From: Natronococcus sp. A-GB1
GTDB lineage: Archaea > Halobacteriota > Halobacteria > Halobacteriales > Natrialbaceae
NCBI RefSeq assembly: GCF_029688845.1
Contig: NZ_JARUKW010000015.1
Span: forward strand, 62,001-126,000
Length of the DNA: 64,000 nucleotides
Reading direction: 5' to 3'
The position numbers and the translations under genes are program-made. Of the stretch, positions 25,369 through 31,665 are shown in pieces; position 1 is the first letter of the stretch, and each line of letters begins with the position of its first letter. The notes below the pieces were generated by a model that did no database searches, had not been told where the DNA came from, and worked only from the letters and a program-made list of their open reading frames with translations.

Positions 25369-26190
25369 ATGAGCCAGTCAGATTCACCGATCCGAGCGAT
25401 GTTCGATGTCCAGCGAGCCGCGATCGAGGGGAGCCAGCAGCTCGCGGAGCGGAGCTTCGCGACCCGGGGAACCGCCAGCCGAATAGCACTCACCGGAGTC
25501 AAGAGCCAGGAGTCCCTTCAGCGCCAGCAACTCGAGCTCGCACAGGCGATGGCCCACGGGACGATCGGAACGATGACCGCGATGGTCCCGGGCGGGAACC
25601 GGGAGCCGATCCAGGAGGGGATCAACGAGGGCTTCGACCAGCTGAAAACCACCCACGCGGAGTTCTACGATGCCCTCGAGCGGGAACTCGAGCGCGATGC
25701 CGAGAGCGTCGATGAGCTCTCCGCGGAGTTTACCGACGCGATGGAGACGAGCACCGAACGGCTGCTCGAGTCCTCCCGCGAGCTCGAGGACCGGACCGTC
25801 GAGAACGTCGACGAGCTCGCCTCACAGCTGCGCGACCAGCTCGAGCGAACCCGGGAGCTACAGGACGAACTCGAAACGCAGCTCGAGCACCGAACCGAGG
25901 ACGTCGAGGAGCTTCTCGAGACCCAGGCCGACCAGATCGACGCCATTCAGGAACAACTCGAGGAGCGTACCGAGCAGGCCCGCGACGCCGGCGGAACGTC
26001 GATCCCGATCGACTCCGACCGCGCGCTCGAGGGAATCGACGGGATCGGAACGACGACCAGCAAGCGACTGTCCGAGGCGGGGATCACGACCGCCGACGAC
26101 CTGACGGATACCGATCCGGAGACCGTCGCCGAGGCCGCGGAGGTCTCGACCTCGCAGGCTCGAGAGTGGATCGACCAGGCCGAAGCCTAA
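25369..26190 (+). CDS. Coiled-coil protein with C-terminal helix-hairpin-helix domain
   Basis: The 273-residue acidic protein has an N-terminal helical region, a long Glu/Gln-rich coiled coil (about residues 95-215, with runs such as LEERTEQ and LEDRTVENVDEL) and a C-terminal HhH pair (about 222-270, LEGIDGIGTTTSKRLSEAG). The latter resembles RecR/Rad51-type or DUF4332-like HhH used for DNA or protein contacts. The start ATG has AGGTGG 9 bases upstream and a TATA-like ATTTATA near 25331. The N-terminal part is reminiscent of phasin-like amphipathic helices, but this is a weak impression. Confidence 0.75.
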   Translation: MSQSDSPIRAMFDVQRAAIEGSQQLAERSFATRGTASRIALTGVKSQESLQRQQLELAQAMAHGTIGTMTAMVPGGNREPIQEGINEGFDQLKTTHAEFYDALERELERDAESVDELSAEFTDAMETSTERLLESSRELEDRTVENVDELASQLRDQLERTRELQDELETQLEHRTEDVEELLETQADQIDAIQEQLEERTEQARDAGGTSIPIDSDRALEGIDGIGTTTSKRLSEAGITTADDLTDTDPETVAEAAEVSTSQAREWIDQAEA

Positions 26191-26482
26191 CCGCAACTGG
26201 TGGCGTTCTCACGCTACGCATAGGTCAAGTAGGTACTGGCGCAGCAATCGAATGCCCAGATATCTGTCAAGGGAAGCCTGCTGAATAGAGAGGATGAGTG
26301 CAGCACAACTGGATCGTTGTTTCCGACCAATCTATGCTGAATCAACTGATCGCTGAAGAGTGCGCATTGATTAGTGACGTTCTATCAGATCCGAGTGAGG
26401 GTCGTCGTATCGTACTGCATACGCAGCGCGCAAGGTCATTCTACATCGGCTAGGAAGTTAACACGTATTAGCACAGTACTCT
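26191..26482. other. AT-rich intergenic region
   Basis: About 290 bases with markedly lower GC than the flanking genes and no ORF I believe. No repeat, RNA or clear promoter pair was seen. It marks the edge of a low-GC segment that continues through the potassium-channel gene. Confidence 0.4.
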
Positions 26483-28075
26483 TTATCCCTTGCCGACAAT
26501 CATATCGCCTGTTTCTAGAATGAACGAATCCGGATCAAACTCAAAAATAGCATTACCATTGCGAATAATAATGAGGGGGTTCATGTCCGTCTTTCGTTCT
26601 GCTTCAGCAACTGTTTTCCCGGATAGATAGTCAGATGTGACCGATGCTGTGAGTATTTGTGCCTTAAATGAAGTTAACGGGGAATCGTCAAAAATAGTTG
26701 TAGCGATCATCTGCCCACTGATTGTCGCAAGAGCTTCGACAGTGGCCGCACCTGCACGATACAACTTCGTTGTGTTCTCTTCTTCGATTGCTCTGACAAT
26801 AATTTCTGCATCAGGATTCATATCACTCGCTATTAGTGTCGTGAAAATCGCAGTCGTATCATTCGAAACAGTCACAATTACTGCAGAAACGTCTTCAATC
26901 CCTGCTTCCTGAAGCACGTCTGGCTGGCGTGCGTCTCCAACAATGTCTACACCAGACTTATCTTCGGTATCAAGTACTGTCACTGCCATATCCTCTTCAG
27001 ATAATGCTTTTTTTGCAGCCGCTCCGGACTCTCCATAGCCGGCAATCAGCACCCGTTGGGGTATCCTTCTATGATTGGTTGATCGCAACCCAGCTTGCAA
27101 ATCATTTATACTATCAGAGGTGCCAGCGATCAAAAGATGGGTAGTCTCCTCAACTTTAAAATCGGAACCCGGTAGTCTAATGAACTCGTTTTTGTCCCAC
27201 GCACCGACCACAGTCACCCCATATCGTTTATGGAATCGACAATCAGCGAGCGTCGTATTACAAAAGGGGCTTTCTTCAGTAACTGAGATTTCAGCCAGTT
27301 CCAGATCATCAGTAATCTCCATCCGGTTTTCGACAATCGACATCGTAGCCGTTTTCGCTCGGACAGCGAGGCTTTCGCCAAGTAATTGCCGTGGGGAGAG
27401 TAATTCGTCAGCACCAGCGATCCGTTGGTACTCACGTAATTCTCTATCTTCGGTGACGGCGATCGTCGTTACTTCAGAATTTATCTCTCGAACAGAAAGA
27501 ATGATGCTGGCATTGACATCGTCAGATGCATCCACAACGACTGCCGCAGCCTTATCGACACTAGCTTGTTCCAGAGTGGTAACGACTTCAGGATCCCCGT
27601 GTACGACTGTCTGCCCTGCTTCGTATAATTCAGTAGCTATTTCGAAGTCAGATTCGACAATTACATATTCTTTTCCCCGCGTGTCCATCTCGGAAGCGAA
27701 TGATTCAGTGCGAGGAGTGACCCCACAAATGACAACATGATCCTCAAGTGTCACTGGATCTGTCGGTAGTGAAGGCTGAAATGCCGATCGGAGCCAGGGG
27801 ACAACGACCGCATTGATCGCTGCAAGAATCAGACCGACACCAGCTAATTGCATTCCGATAACCAGAATATTCATCTGTGGTGTTTCCCAGGGTGCGTCCT
27901 GCCCATACCCGGTCGTGGTAAAACTCTGGAAAACTACTTCAAGCGACTGAATCATGCTCTGTGGCCGGTTCTCCCATCGGGCCATCCCAATGTTGTAAGC
28001 GACTGTGAAGATGACCGTCGTCACCATGACCAAAATCAGAAATCGCCACGTGCGTGATGACAGCCTATATACCAT
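26483..28075 (-). CDS. Potassium channel with tandem RCK (TrkA-N/TrkA-C) modules
   Basis: The 530-residue protein has TM1 (about residues 10-30), a pore loop with the K+ filter-like TTTGYGQD (about 52-59), TM2 (about 68-95) and then two RCK units, each a Rossmann TrkA-N (HVVICGVTPRT and RVLIAGYGESG) plus TrkA-C. This is the MthK/Kch-like layout with a duplicated regulatory ring, gated by nucleotides, cations or redox cofactors. Codon use is AT-rich (many ATA, AAA, TCA) and unlike neighbouring genes, which suggests acquisition by transfer. It is divergent from a short weak ORF and 157 bases from no obvious partner. Confidence 0.87.
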   Translation of the reverse strand: MVYRLSSRTWRFLILVMVTTVIFTVAYNIGMARWENRPQSMIQSLEVVFQSFTTTGYGQDAPWETPQMNILVIGMQLAGVGLILAAINAVVVPWLRSAFQPSLPTDPVTLEDHVVICGVTPRTESFASEMDTRGKEYVIVESDFEIATELYEAGQTVVHGDPEVVTTLEQASVDKAAAVVVDASDDVNASIILSVREINSEVTTIAVTEDRELREYQRIAGADELLSPRQLLGESLAVRAKTATMSIVENRMEITDDLELAEISVTEESPFCNTTLADCRFHKRYGVTVVGAWDKNEFIRLPGSDFKVEETTHLLIAGTSDSINDLQAGLRSTNHRRIPQRVLIAGYGESGAAAKKALSEEDMAVTVLDTEDKSGVDIVGDARQPDVLQEAGIEDVSAVIVTVSNDTTAIFTTLIASDMNPDAEIIVRAIEEENTTKLYRAGAATVEALATISGQMIATTIFDDSPLTSFKAQILTASVTSDYLSGKTVAEAERKTDMNPLIIIRNGNAIFEFDPDSFILETGDMIVGKG

Positions 28076-28099
28076 ATTTACTGCTTTAGTTGAACTACC

Positions 28100-28354
28100 A
28101 TGAAATTGCTCATGGTATTAGTGAACAACGCCGAGCAAGTACGCTTAGCTATGGCTATATTAAAATCCTCAAGAAGTGATAGTTTTACTGTCGTGCTGAG
28201 TATAGAGCATGGATGCAGCAGTCAATACCTGTTTATTGATGTCGGAGAGCTGGCTCTCGAAGTTTTAACGGACTCTGAATTCGAGCGCCGCGAACGCCAC
28301 AGACGACTGGTCGACAATACCCGGCTTTCGTGTGGGAACAGAATATCTAGATAA
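28100..28354 (+). CDS. Possible short ORF, 84 residues
   Basis: An ORF begins at ATG 28100 (KLLMVLVNNAEQVRLAMAIL) divergent from the channel gene and overlaps the 3' end of the UspA-ferredoxin gene by eight bases. The first half looks like a betaalphabeta start reminiscent of PII-like or UspA modules; the second half is Arg-rich and less convincing. It could be a truncated gene. I do not recognise a family. Confidence 0.3.
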   Translation: MKLLMVLVNNAEQVRLAMAILKSSRSDSFTVVLSIEHGCSSQYLFIDVGELALEVLTDSEFERRERHRRLVDNTRLSCGNRISR

Positions 28355-29519
28355 TCCGCTCACGGAGCTGCTCGAGCTGTTTGGCGTTGTAGACTAATTT
28401 CACCTCGTCGGTCGTCGGTGTGGCGACGCAGGTCAACCGCAGGTTCATCTCATCGACCTCCTCATCGGAGAGGCTCCGGTTGACCTCCATCTCGACCTCG
28501 CCATCAACCAGTACCGCAGCACAGTTGATACAGCCACCACCCCGACAGTAGAACGGCCAGTCGTAGCCTTCCCCCTCGGCCGCTTCGAGGATGTACTCGC
28601 CCTTTTCGACGGTCATCGTCCCGTAGGCCTCTGCCGTCAGGTCGGCCTCGGCCGCCTTCTCGAAGAGATCGTCGTCCTCCAGCGACCAGGCTCGATCCTC
28701 GATTACTTCGTAGTTGAGGAACTCGACGGTGGCGCCGACCGACTTCGGTTTCACAGAGACGACCGGAACCGGCGAGAACCGCACCGTGCGTTCGGTGACG
28801 CTCCCGAGCAGGTATCGCCTGAGGCCAGTGTGACCGTGTGTCCCCATCACGACGACATCGATCCCTGCCTCCGCCACGTATCCGGCGATCGCCTCGTGCG
28901 GCCGACCGCTCTGTGTGGCCGTGACGACCTCCACGCCGGCGGCTTCGCTCCGATCTCGGACGTCGTCGATCGGCGACGACTCCTCCTTGCGCTCCTCCGA
29001 CGTGACGTGCAGTGCGTGGAGCGTCCCGCCGACCTCGGCCACGAGGTCGATCGCGTGCTCCGTGGCGGCTTCCGCTCCCTCGCTCCCGTCGGTCGGGACG
29101 AGGACGTTATTCACCTCGAAGTCGATGACGGTATCTTTGTGGACGGTCATGACGGGGATCGGAGACTCCCGGAGGGTCTGTTCGGCCACGCTGCCGAGCA
29201 GGAACCGGCCGAGCCCCGTCCGGCCCTGCGTCCCCATCACGACGACATCGACGCCGCGCTCTTCGGCATAGTCGATGATCGCCCGGTGGATCGCCGACTC
29301 CTCGTCGTCGATGATCTCCGTCTGTGCGGTAAGACCGGCCTCGGTCGCGATGCCCTCGATATCCGTCACGGCCTGTTTTGCTCGCTCTTCGCTGCCCGGC
29401 TCCCGAACGGAGACCACGGTCAGATCGGAGCCGAAGTGTTCCGCCATCCGGACGGCGACGGCTCCGGCTCGCTCCGCCACTTCGCTCCCGTCGGTCGGGA
29501 CGAGGATCTCGTTGTACAT
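28347..29519 (-). CDS. UspA-UspA-[2Fe-2S] ferredoxin fusion protein
   Basis: The 390-residue cytoplasmic protein contains two universal stress domains and a complete halophilic plant-type ferredoxin. UspA-1 (residues 1-130) has the ATP-site motif GTQGRTGLGRFLLGS (96-110); UspA-2 (136-258) has GTHGHTGLRRYLLGS (226-240). The ferredoxin (about 264-390) includes the haloarchaeal acidic insert LEDDDLFEKAA and cluster Cys at 325, 330, 333 and 364 (C-x4-C-x2-C...C). The ending VKLVYNAKQLEQL matches free haloarchaeal ferredoxins. ATP-binding stress domains tied to an electron carrier is unusual. I start at ATG 29519; an upstream GTG is possible. It is divergent from the haem membrane protein at 29755. 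Confidence 0.9.
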   Translation of the reverse strand: MYNEILVPTDGSEVAERAGAVAVRMAEHFGSDLTVVSVREPGSEERAKQAVTDIEGIATEAGLTAQTEIIDDEESAIHRAIIDYAEERGVDVVVMGTQGRTGLGRFLLGSVAEQTLRESPIPVMTVHKDTVIDFEVNNVLVPTDGSEGAEAATEHAIDLVAEVGGTLHALHVTSEERKEESSPIDDVRDRSEAAGVEVVTATQSGRPHEAIAGYVAEAGIDVVVMGTHGHTGLRRYLLGSVTERTVRFSPVPVVSVKPKSVGATVEFLNYEVIEDRAWSLEDDDLFEKAAEADLTAEAYGTMTVEKGEYILEAAEGEGYDWPFYCRGGGCINCAAVLVDGEVEMEVNRSLSDEEVDEMNLRLTCVATPTTDEVKLVYNAKQLEQLRERII

Positions 29520-29608
29520 ACATGAGAGCACCGTTGCCGTCCCATATTAAACCCGGCTGTCATTCCAGTCTAAAGGAACCATCTACAGATGGAGCGAGCC
29601 GAATGTCT

Positions 29609-29620
29609 GAAACCGGGCCA
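29609..29620. promoter_or_regulatory. GAAACCGGGCCA element in the Usp-ferredoxin/haem-protein divergent region
   Basis: This 12-mer lies about 90 bases before the UspA-ferredoxin start and 135 before the haem protein start. A near-identical core occurs at 51362-51374 before the CBS-MaoC gene and a variant at 53650-53662. The function is not known. Confidence 0.3.
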
Positions 29621-29754
29621 ATGCTCCCCCCGCGGGACGCATACGATGACGACCGGAGCAAACCTTATTTTAAACCCGAATCCGGCTGCCAATCCACAAT
29701 CCGATAACTATAATTTATAACTGAAGGCTTCGAACGTCGACGTGGAAACAGATA

Positions 29755-30396
29755 ATGTCGGTAGACACGAACAACGATCTCACTCATCATCTTGCGGTGG
29801 GTATCGGTAGCGTCGTATTCGCCGCGTTGTTGTGGGTGGCCGGATATCACGAGCAGCGAGTCGTCGGAGCAGTGCCGTGGTTCCTCCTGGTTTTGGTGTT
29901 GCTCGTCGGGCCGACGGTGAGGCTGTGGCCCGGAATCAGGCGCCGGTTCTCCGGCAACTTCCCCGTTAACTGGCGGGCGGAACTGGGGATCTGGTTCGCG
30001 ATTTGGAGCGTCGTTCACCTGCTTTTCGTGTTCCACGCGAGGGACTGGGACGTCGTCGGCTACCTGGCTGACATGAGCCCGTGGGCGTTCGGATCGTTCG
30101 TGGCCGTGATCATGGCGGTCGGGCTCGCGGCTACCTCGAACAACCGAGCGTACGACTACATGGGCGGGAAAGCGTGGAAGTGGCATCAGACTGTCGGTGC
30201 GTACGCGATCTTCTGGCTCCTCACCGTCCACATCTACGACAGGGCCTATCTCCGGCCCGGGTTCCCGTCCGACGATCCGCTCCACTGGTTGTATCTGAGC
30301 ACGCTCGTTCTCGTCGTCGCCCTCCAGGTCGCCGCGTTCGCCAAGGTCATCTCCCACTATCAGAAGACGGGTGAGTATCCCTCAGGGCTGAACTGA
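29755..30396 (+). CDS. Ferric-reductase-like haem b transmembrane protein
   Basis: The 213-residue protein has about six TM helices and the His spacing of ferric-reductase-like/YedZ (MsrQ) domains: WSVVHLLFVFHARDWD, then WKWHQTVGAYAIFWLLTVHIY, giving pairs of His on two helices for b haem. MsrQ-type proteins pass quinol electrons to a redox partner; FRE-type ones move electrons across the membrane. No partner molybdoenzyme is adjacent, but the divergent gene encodes a UspA-ferredoxin fusion. AT-rich AACTATAATTTATAAC lies about 40 bases before the ATG as a likely promoter. Confidence 0.8.
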   Translation: MSVDTNNDLTHHLAVGIGSVVFAALLWVAGYHEQRVVGAVPWFLLVLVLLVGPTVRLWPGIRRRFSGNFPVNWRAELGIWFAIWSVVHLLFVFHARDWDVVGYLADMSPWAFGSFVAVIMAVGLAATSNNRAYDYMGGKAWKWHQTVGAYAIFWLLTVHIYDRAYLRPGFPSDDPLHWLYLSTLVLVVALQVAAFAKVISHYQKTGEYPSGLN

Positions 30397-30699: not shown

Positions 30700-31665
30700 T
30701 CACTCGAGTTCGGGAAGAACCTCATCGCCGAAGTCCTCGACGAACCGTTTCTGCTCGCGGGTGACGTTGTGCAACAGGAGCTTGTCGACCTCGAGTGCGA
30801 GGTCCCGCTGGAGCCACTCGAGGTGGTCCTTGGGGTCGGCCGAGACCCGGACGCTCTCGGCGACCTGCTCGCGGGTGACCTGCTCGCCCAGCGCGTCGAA
30901 CTCCTCGGGGGTGCGGAGCTTCTGGGTGACCGAGCCGGGGGCGCAGTTGGTACGCCACTGGTTGTAGGCACCCTCGAGAGCCGCGTCGTTGTCCTCGTCG
31001 TAGGCGAGTTGAACCTTGAGGGCGACCGGTTTCTCCGGGGCGTTCTCGCGGAACGCTTCGACTCGGTCCTCGAGGCCCTCGTGGTCGGGCGTCGCGATCG
31101 TGATCAACCCCTCGACCCAGTCGCGGGTGCCGAGCCAGCGGGCGGTCTCTGCCGAGAGCGCGGCGCCGAACAGCGGCGGCGGCGACTCGGGACGGGTGTA
31201 CAGCGTGGCCCGCTCGACGTCCACCCGTCCGTGGTGGGTCACCTCCTCGCCATCCCACAGACGGTGCATGATCTCGGCGCACTCCTCGAGGCGAGCGTTG
31301 CGCTCGTCCTTGAGCGGCCACTCCACACCTGCGACCCCTTCGTTCATCAGCTGGCCGCTGCCGACAGCGAACCAGAACCGCTCGGGGTACATTTCCCGGA
31401 GCGTGGCGGCCGACTGGGCGACGATCGCCGGATGGTAGCGGTAACCGGGCGCGTTGACGGTGCCGAACGACAGCGAGGTCCGCTCCATCGCCGATCCGAG
31501 CCACGACCAGACAAACCCCGACTCGCCCTGGCGCTCGCTCCAGGGGTGGAAGTGATCGGAGGCGAGCACCGCGTCGAACTCGTATTCGTCGGCGAGTTCG
31601 ACGTACTCGAGCAGGTCGCTCGGCGCAAACTGCTCGTGGGAGGCGTGGAAACCGATCTCGACCAC
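30700..31665 (-). CDS. LLM-class flavin-dependent oxidoreductase (F420 or non-F420 type)
   Basis: The 321-residue protein is a bacterial-luciferase-like TIM barrel: MVEIGFHASHEQFAPSDLL, then DAVLASDHFHPWSERQ, AVGSGQLMNEG and ADPKDHLEWLQRDL. It resembles the glucose-6-phosphate dehydrogenase-like subfamily annotated as TIGR03885. Haloarchaea use F420, and many LLM enzymes bind it, but this subgroup may use FMN. The start is GTG, three bases after the stop of a 58-residue gene, indicating coupling. Confidence 0.85.
   Translation of the reverse strand: MVEIGFHASHEQFAPSDLLEYVELADEYEFDAVLASDHFHPWSERQGESGFVWSWLGSAMERTSLSFGTVNAPGYRYHPAIVAQSAATLREMYPERFWFAVGSGQLMNEGVAGVEWPLKDERNARLEECAEIMHRLWDGEEVTHHGRVDVERATLYTRPESPPPLFGAALSAETARWLGTRDWVEGLITIATPDHEGLEDRVEAFRENAPEKPVALKVQLAYDEDNDAALEGAYNQWRTNCAPGSVTQKLRTPEEFDALGEQVTREQVAESVRVSADPKDHLEWLQRDLALEVDKLLLHNVTREQKRFVEDFGDEVLPELE

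Follow-up and report, generated by a model that had tools for sequence, protein, structure and literature searches.

Among the described systems closest to the locus studied here is MsrQ (YedZ)/Fre/MsrP of Escherichia coli, in which a short membrane protein of the ferric reductase domain (FRD) superfamily, with an arginine in TM3, is served by a separate cytosolic donor, a flavin reductase, and an extracytoplasmic acceptor receives the electrons from across the membrane (PMC11031084, PMC3591440). In the FRD proteins known so far, electrons leave the cytosol and travel outward (PMC11031084). The short bFRD/STEAP type is characterized by two substitutions, arginine for the first TM3 histidine and glutamine for the inner TM5 histidine (Zhang et al., PMC3591440). 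Universal stress proteins (Usps) such as TeaD and Rv2623 have been reported to regulate membrane transporters (PMC5549992). Permease and antiporter fusions are named in a 2025 survey of the Usp architectures of archaea, whose main text does not contain the word 'ferredoxin' (PMC12159084); no description of a Usp-Usp-ferredoxin fusion, or of a module containing one, was found in open-access papers.

The locus described here lies in a 64,000-nucleotide stretch of the Natronococcus sp. A-GB1 genome (the window). As in the MsrQ system, a short FRD membrane protein and a separate cytosolic donor are predicted, with transfer to an acceptor outside the cytoplasm, but the place of the flavin reductase would be taken by a 2Fe-2S ferredoxin that is fused to two Usp domains. 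The fusion gene is almost always paired with the membrane haem gene, which suggests a stress-controlled electron route through the cell membrane. The features of the locus are as follows:

28347..29519, minus strand: Usp-Usp-ferredoxin fusion gene (390 aa, ATG start at 29519)
29139..29519, minus strand: first Usp domain, residues 1-127 (nucleotide motif G96-x2-G99-x9-G109-S110)
28749..29120, minus strand: second Usp domain, approximately residues 134-257 (motif G226-x2-G229-x9-G239-S240)
28350..28730, minus strand: haloarchaeal 2Fe-2S ferredoxin domain, residues 264-390 (Cys 325, 330, 333 and 364; fusion-specific CRxGGC[VI]xC loop)
29520..29754, no strand: divergent intergenic region of 235 bp, with an AT-rich promoter-like stretch before each start (by eye)
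29755..30396, plus strand: six-helix membrane protein, predicted STEAP/YedZ-type ferric reductase domain (213 aa; R74, H88, Q145 and H159, and also H12, H144 and H177)

The fusion protein and its divergent membrane neighbour

The reading frame of the fusion is open from a GTG (28347-29531), and the ATG at 29519 is the better start, giving a protein of 390 aa that ends at 28347. A first-pass annotation had described two Usp domains with intact nucleotide motifs followed by a complete haloarchaeal ferredoxin with its four cysteines and acidic insert, and this description was borne out in both parts. Pfam assigned two Usp domains (1.1e-53) and a Fer2 domain (2e-12). The G-x2-G-x9-G(S/T) motifs, beginning at residues 96 and 226, are present as described, and the cysteines stand at the stated positions 325, 330, 333 and 364; both motifs were found in 32 of the 33 fusion loci. 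The NCBIfam model Frdxn_Halo (NF041393) scored 204 bits on residues 264-390, against a cut-off of 150, and the domain, including its acidic N-terminal insert, aligned end to end with the Halobacterium and Haloarcula ferredoxins 1e0z and 1doi. It differs from such ferredoxins in being fused and in its loop: CRxGGC[VI]xC was found in all fused domains, and CRAGACANC or CRAASCANC in nearly all unfused ones, the three apparent unfused exceptions in this tally being fused copies that had been sampled again. The nearest solved structures to the Usp half were tandem Usps, with the ATP-bound TTHA0350 (3ab8) first, followed by the Archaeoglobus tandem Usp and Rv2623, from all of which the window protein differs by the ferredoxin at its C terminus. 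On the basis of the motifs and of the fold match to ATP-bound 3ab8, the Usp pair is predicted to bind ATP. The predicted structure of the fusion was only moderate around the cluster loop, with blocks at 50-65 pLDDT.

The divergent neighbour had been annotated as ferric-reductase-like. Such an identity could not be read from protein families, because the 213-aa protein has no match of its own in Pfam or NCBIfam; nor did it have a sequence match in the PDB. Ferric_reduct (PF01794) did not match it and was weak in 5 of 34 homologues (best 7e-4), and a distant homologue (L109) scored above the gathering score of that family. The identification is supported by this homologue together with the structural model and the residue signature. 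The AlphaFold model contains six membrane helices (pLDDT 88.9), and its best VIA-align matches were STEAP2 (Z 17.9), STEAP4 (Z 17.4) and STEAP1 (all three at Z 17-18), followed by NOX5 (Z 14.1), SpNOX (Z ~13), NOX2, DUOX1 and cytochrome b561; Foldseek matches were weak (best E 1.2e-3). R74, H88 and H159 are present in all 34 homologues and Q145 in 33, with R74 exactly 14 residues before H88 and Q145 14 residues before H159. This pattern is the STEAP/YedZ residue signature and matches the Arg(TM3)/Gln(TM5) rule (PMC3591440). Three further histidines, H12, H144 and H177, are conserved, but H144 is absent in 7 of the 34 homologues, so that the inner ligands are not fully conserved; it is missing from Aenigmarchaeota, CPR and one Chloroflexota sequence.

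At the level of fold, assignment of the modelled protein to the YedZ/STEAP type of the FRD superfamily is well supported, and one outer b-haem would with high likelihood lie between H88 and H159. The likeness to the STEAP1-4 metalloreductases extends to the one-haem pattern and to the Arg/Gln replacement of the inner histidines; on the other hand, the window protein lacks their NADPH domain, would have a ferredoxin as donor and carries the additional conserved H12, H144 and H177. With the NADPH oxidases (NOX, SpNOX) it shares the FRD fold (Z 12-14) but neither the four-histidine two-haem pattern nor the FNR domain. Membership of the NOX group was ruled out by R74, which replaces the inner TM3 histidine, and by a length of 213 aa without an FNR domain.

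Conservation and rearrangement of the gene pair

Absence of the fusion from relatives had been named in the first-pass annotation as counting against its idea; when looked for, full-length homologues were found in 27 of the 125 genomes of the family and in a few from other families of the order, in favour of that idea. A sample across the whole phylum gave matches in this family only, at the threshold used. In the tree of ferredoxin domains, all 33 fused domains formed one clade apart from 24 other ferredoxins (support 100/98), indicating that the fusion arose once; it is both real and ancient. That the junction of Usp and ferredoxin might stem from a frameshift or a chimeric assembly was ruled out by these 33 copies forming one clade. 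The window pair is likewise not an assembly artefact, because Natronococcus amylolyticus holds both genes at 99% identity. Another haloarchaeal ferredoxin fusion was observed at L201:1135-1917, in which the same type of ferredoxin comes after an apparent J-domain N terminus.

The pairing of the fusion with the haem gene is real. The haem gene was found at 27 of the 33 fusion loci (23 adjoining, three with one gene between and one with four between), an outcome likewise in favour of the idea, against which a haem gene that is no conserved neighbour had also been named in advance. Over the 125 family genomes, 25 contained both genes, 2 the fusion only, 7 the haem gene only and 91 neither (p = 8e-18, an optimistic value, since close relatives were counted more than once). 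Furthermore, the distances of the fusion and haem proteins were correlated (r = 0.92 overall, and 0.75 within the co-directional group, permutation p ~0.02). At eight fusion loci, the window included, the two genes are divergent and 165-530 bp apart; in most other haem-bearing loci they point the same way, and the fusion then typically precedes the haem gene by 73-75 bp. Two fusion loci have neither the haem gene nor the alternative partner described below, and in those genomes the haem gene is present elsewhere. These data provide good support for a partnership of the fusion and the haem protein. Gene calls in the neighbourhoods came from a composition-based script and are approximate.

In four loci without the haem gene (L090, L091, L121 and L131), a 70-aa two-helix protein is encoded directly downstream of the fusion on the same strand. 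Its His4 and His46 (alignment numbering) are invariant, and it weakly matches DUF4405, Ni_hydr_CYTB, bacterial cytochrome b561 and related haem families. Full-length copies were found in five genomes of the family, all with the fusion, four of them adjoining it. The tree requires three partner changes and has strongly supported branches that force two of these, which indicates that this candidate mini-cytochrome was acquired at least twice independently, replacing the haem gene. Purified DUF4405 and FezC proteins bind haem b, the FezC sites being formed by dimerization in the model (PMC11334425); the 70-aa partner resembles these mini-cytochromes through its weak DUF4405 match and differs in having two helices only and in that its haem binding is predicted.

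The co-directional loci (L083-L091, L120-L132) lie in islands rich in Usp genes, and to some extent the link with Usp genes at these loci could reflect the region. The islands also hold genes for a P-type cation ATPase, a thiolase with a ChsH2-type OB protein, an SDR, a ClC channel, a pyridoxamine-oxidase-like protein and a cupredoxin, a set that we take to recall the mycobacterial DosR dormancy set. As a full explanation, an ordinary regional stress island was ruled out by the eight divergent loci including the window, which are mostly without a Usp-rich island and have few other recurrent neighbours. The A-GB1 genome itself carries a second, co-directional fusion-haem pair (L127, G000:C2:61755-63867) whose haem gene is split by a frameshift, and another haem-gene relic with a stop (G000:C2:3930-4213). 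Next to the window pair, a TrkA/RCK potassium-channel-like gene (26483-28075, minus strand) lies in a stretch (26001-28100) of about 50% G+C, against 66-68% for the window; a homologue stands between the fusion and haem genes in one other locus of the genus Natronococcus (L124). Since it was seen only in Natronococcus kin, it was rejected as a core member of the module. Just past the haem gene, an F420/FMN-dependent luciferase-like oxidoreductase of the TIGR03885 family is encoded (30700-31665, minus strand), which was seen there in close kin only.

Where the haem gene occurs without the fusion, other ferredoxin genes recur beside it in several lineages, though not in all. A Tat-type lipoprotein 2Fe-2S ferredoxin is encoded immediately upstream on the same strand in four Natronococcus-genus genomes and one divergent Halobacteriales bin (L097, L098, L100, L101 and L107), and near the haem gene in Halobellus and one Halococcaceae bin. 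In two Campbellbacteria (CPR) bins (L164 and L167), the haem gene adjoins, in convergent-facing orientation, genes for 2-oxoacid:ferredoxin oxidoreductase (POR/PFO-type) subunits and a 4Fe-4S ferredoxin. No ferredoxin gene was found near several other haem homologues, mainly bacterial, including most of those in Chloroflexota bins. A cupredoxin gene is present in some of the haem/fusion loci, and cation/proton antiporter genes were observed beside fusion-less haem genes in L106, L153 and L164 (PF00999 in L106, pairs in L106 and L153). The MsrP (molybdopterin Met-sulfoxide reductase) family was not recognized among those recurrent neighbours that were annotated. The haem-protein family also extends to bins assigned to Chloroflexota, Spirochaetaceae, Campbellbacteria, Nealsonbacteria and Aenigmarchaeota (L147-L168), presumably from soda-lake samples to judge from the bin names, a distribution that suggests transfer between domains.

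A probable ferredoxin-fed conduit and its alternatives

We consider it probable that the two proteins form one electron-transfer module, a ferredoxin-fed transmembrane conduit of the STEAP/YedZ type with a cytosolic donor that is joined to an ATP-binding stress sensor. The cytosolic partner would be the 2Fe-2S ferredoxin attached to the tandem ATP-binding Usp, and the membrane partner the short FRD protein, which is expected to bind haem, with one b-haem probably bound by H88 and H159 close to the outer face. A second cofactor site may exist at the cytosolic face, either for a flavin at R74/Q145, as in STEAP, or for a second haem held through H12/H144. Electrons would pass from reduced ferredoxin to the inner site, from there to the outer haem, and then to an acceptor outside the cytoplasm, for which an exported Tat-lipoprotein ferredoxin or a cupredoxin might speculatively be proposed. 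That ferredoxin would be the donor is suggested by MsrQ, NOX and STEAP as comparators and by the ferredoxin oxidoreductases encoded next to the haem gene in CPR bacteria, which narrows the 'donor or acceptor' role given to the haem protein in the first-pass annotation; the transfer from ferredoxin to the outer haem would be the simplest chain, given the outward flow in known FRD proteins, the covalently attached ferredoxin and the ferredoxin-reducing enzymes encoded beside the CPR homologues. Control of the donor by energy state is plausible, because the Usp pair resembles ATP-bound TTHA0350 and Rv2623 and other Usps are reported to regulate membrane transporters; the pair would most likely control or localize the donor in this way. 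That ATP gates the electron flow, and that redox stress is the trigger, as the first-pass annotation had it, is speculative.

Three other explanations of the locus were weighed. An ordinary stress-island neighbourhood combined with a chance domain fusion, the pairing having no function, would suit the co-directional loci with their Usp, P-type ATPase, thiolase and ClC genes, but it is very improbable and already contradicted by the conservation data, namely the scarcity of other recurrent neighbours in the divergent loci, the co-occurrence over the family and the exchange of the partner for another candidate cytochrome at least twice. Unlikely, but of more weight, is that the membrane protein is STEAP/MsrQ-like with a flavin reductase or a soluble flavin as its donor, in which case the fused ferredoxin would serve other enzymes and the two genes would be only co-regulated stress genes. 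STEAP holds FAD at the Arg/Gln site that corresponds to R74/Q145, and the many haem homologues without a nearby ferredoxin also point in this direction, as does the provenance of MsrQ electrons from a flavin reductase (PMC11031084). Against this, no flavin-reductase gene was recognized in the neighbour families that recur, three different kinds of ferredoxin gene are found repeatedly beside haem genes, and the linkage of fusion and haem gene persists across different gene orders.

The electrons might also run in reverse, from an outside or quinol donor through the membrane protein to the ferredoxin, or the ferredoxin might sense the redox state of the membrane for Usp signalling. As an ATP-binding unit the Usp pair is of a typical regulatory kind, and the Tat-lipoprotein ferredoxins beside other haem homologues would sit outside the cell, both of which speak for this reading. 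We nevertheless regard it as quite improbable, since haloarchaeal ferredoxins are of low potential and a ferredoxin-reducing enzyme adjoins the haem gene in the two CPR loci. The outward electron movement in known FRD proteins also argues against it (PMC11031084).

Returning to the ferredoxin-fed conduit, a bolder form of it can be put forward only tentatively: it would represent a new class of transmembrane electron outlet, with a ferredoxin in place of a flavin or NADPH reductase feeding a STEAP-type haem protein. ATP occupancy of the fused Usp pair would switch the donor on or off, as an energy-gated redox valve, and a membrane cytochrome would have been retained or regained by the fusion through gene rearrangements and at least two changes of partner. 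If ferredoxin-fed, the protein would be, to our knowledge, the first such member of the FRD superfamily, the known donors of STEAP, MsrQ and NOX being flavin- or NADPH-based.

Universal stress proteins are widespread, and the function of most of them is still obscure. A Usp pair joined covalently to an electron carrier, with a specific and conserved membrane partner, would offer a measurable output, electron transfer to haem, that can be followed against ATP. In addition, the proposed module would provide a likely function for a membrane protein family common to haloarchaea and to bacterial bins apparently from soda lakes.
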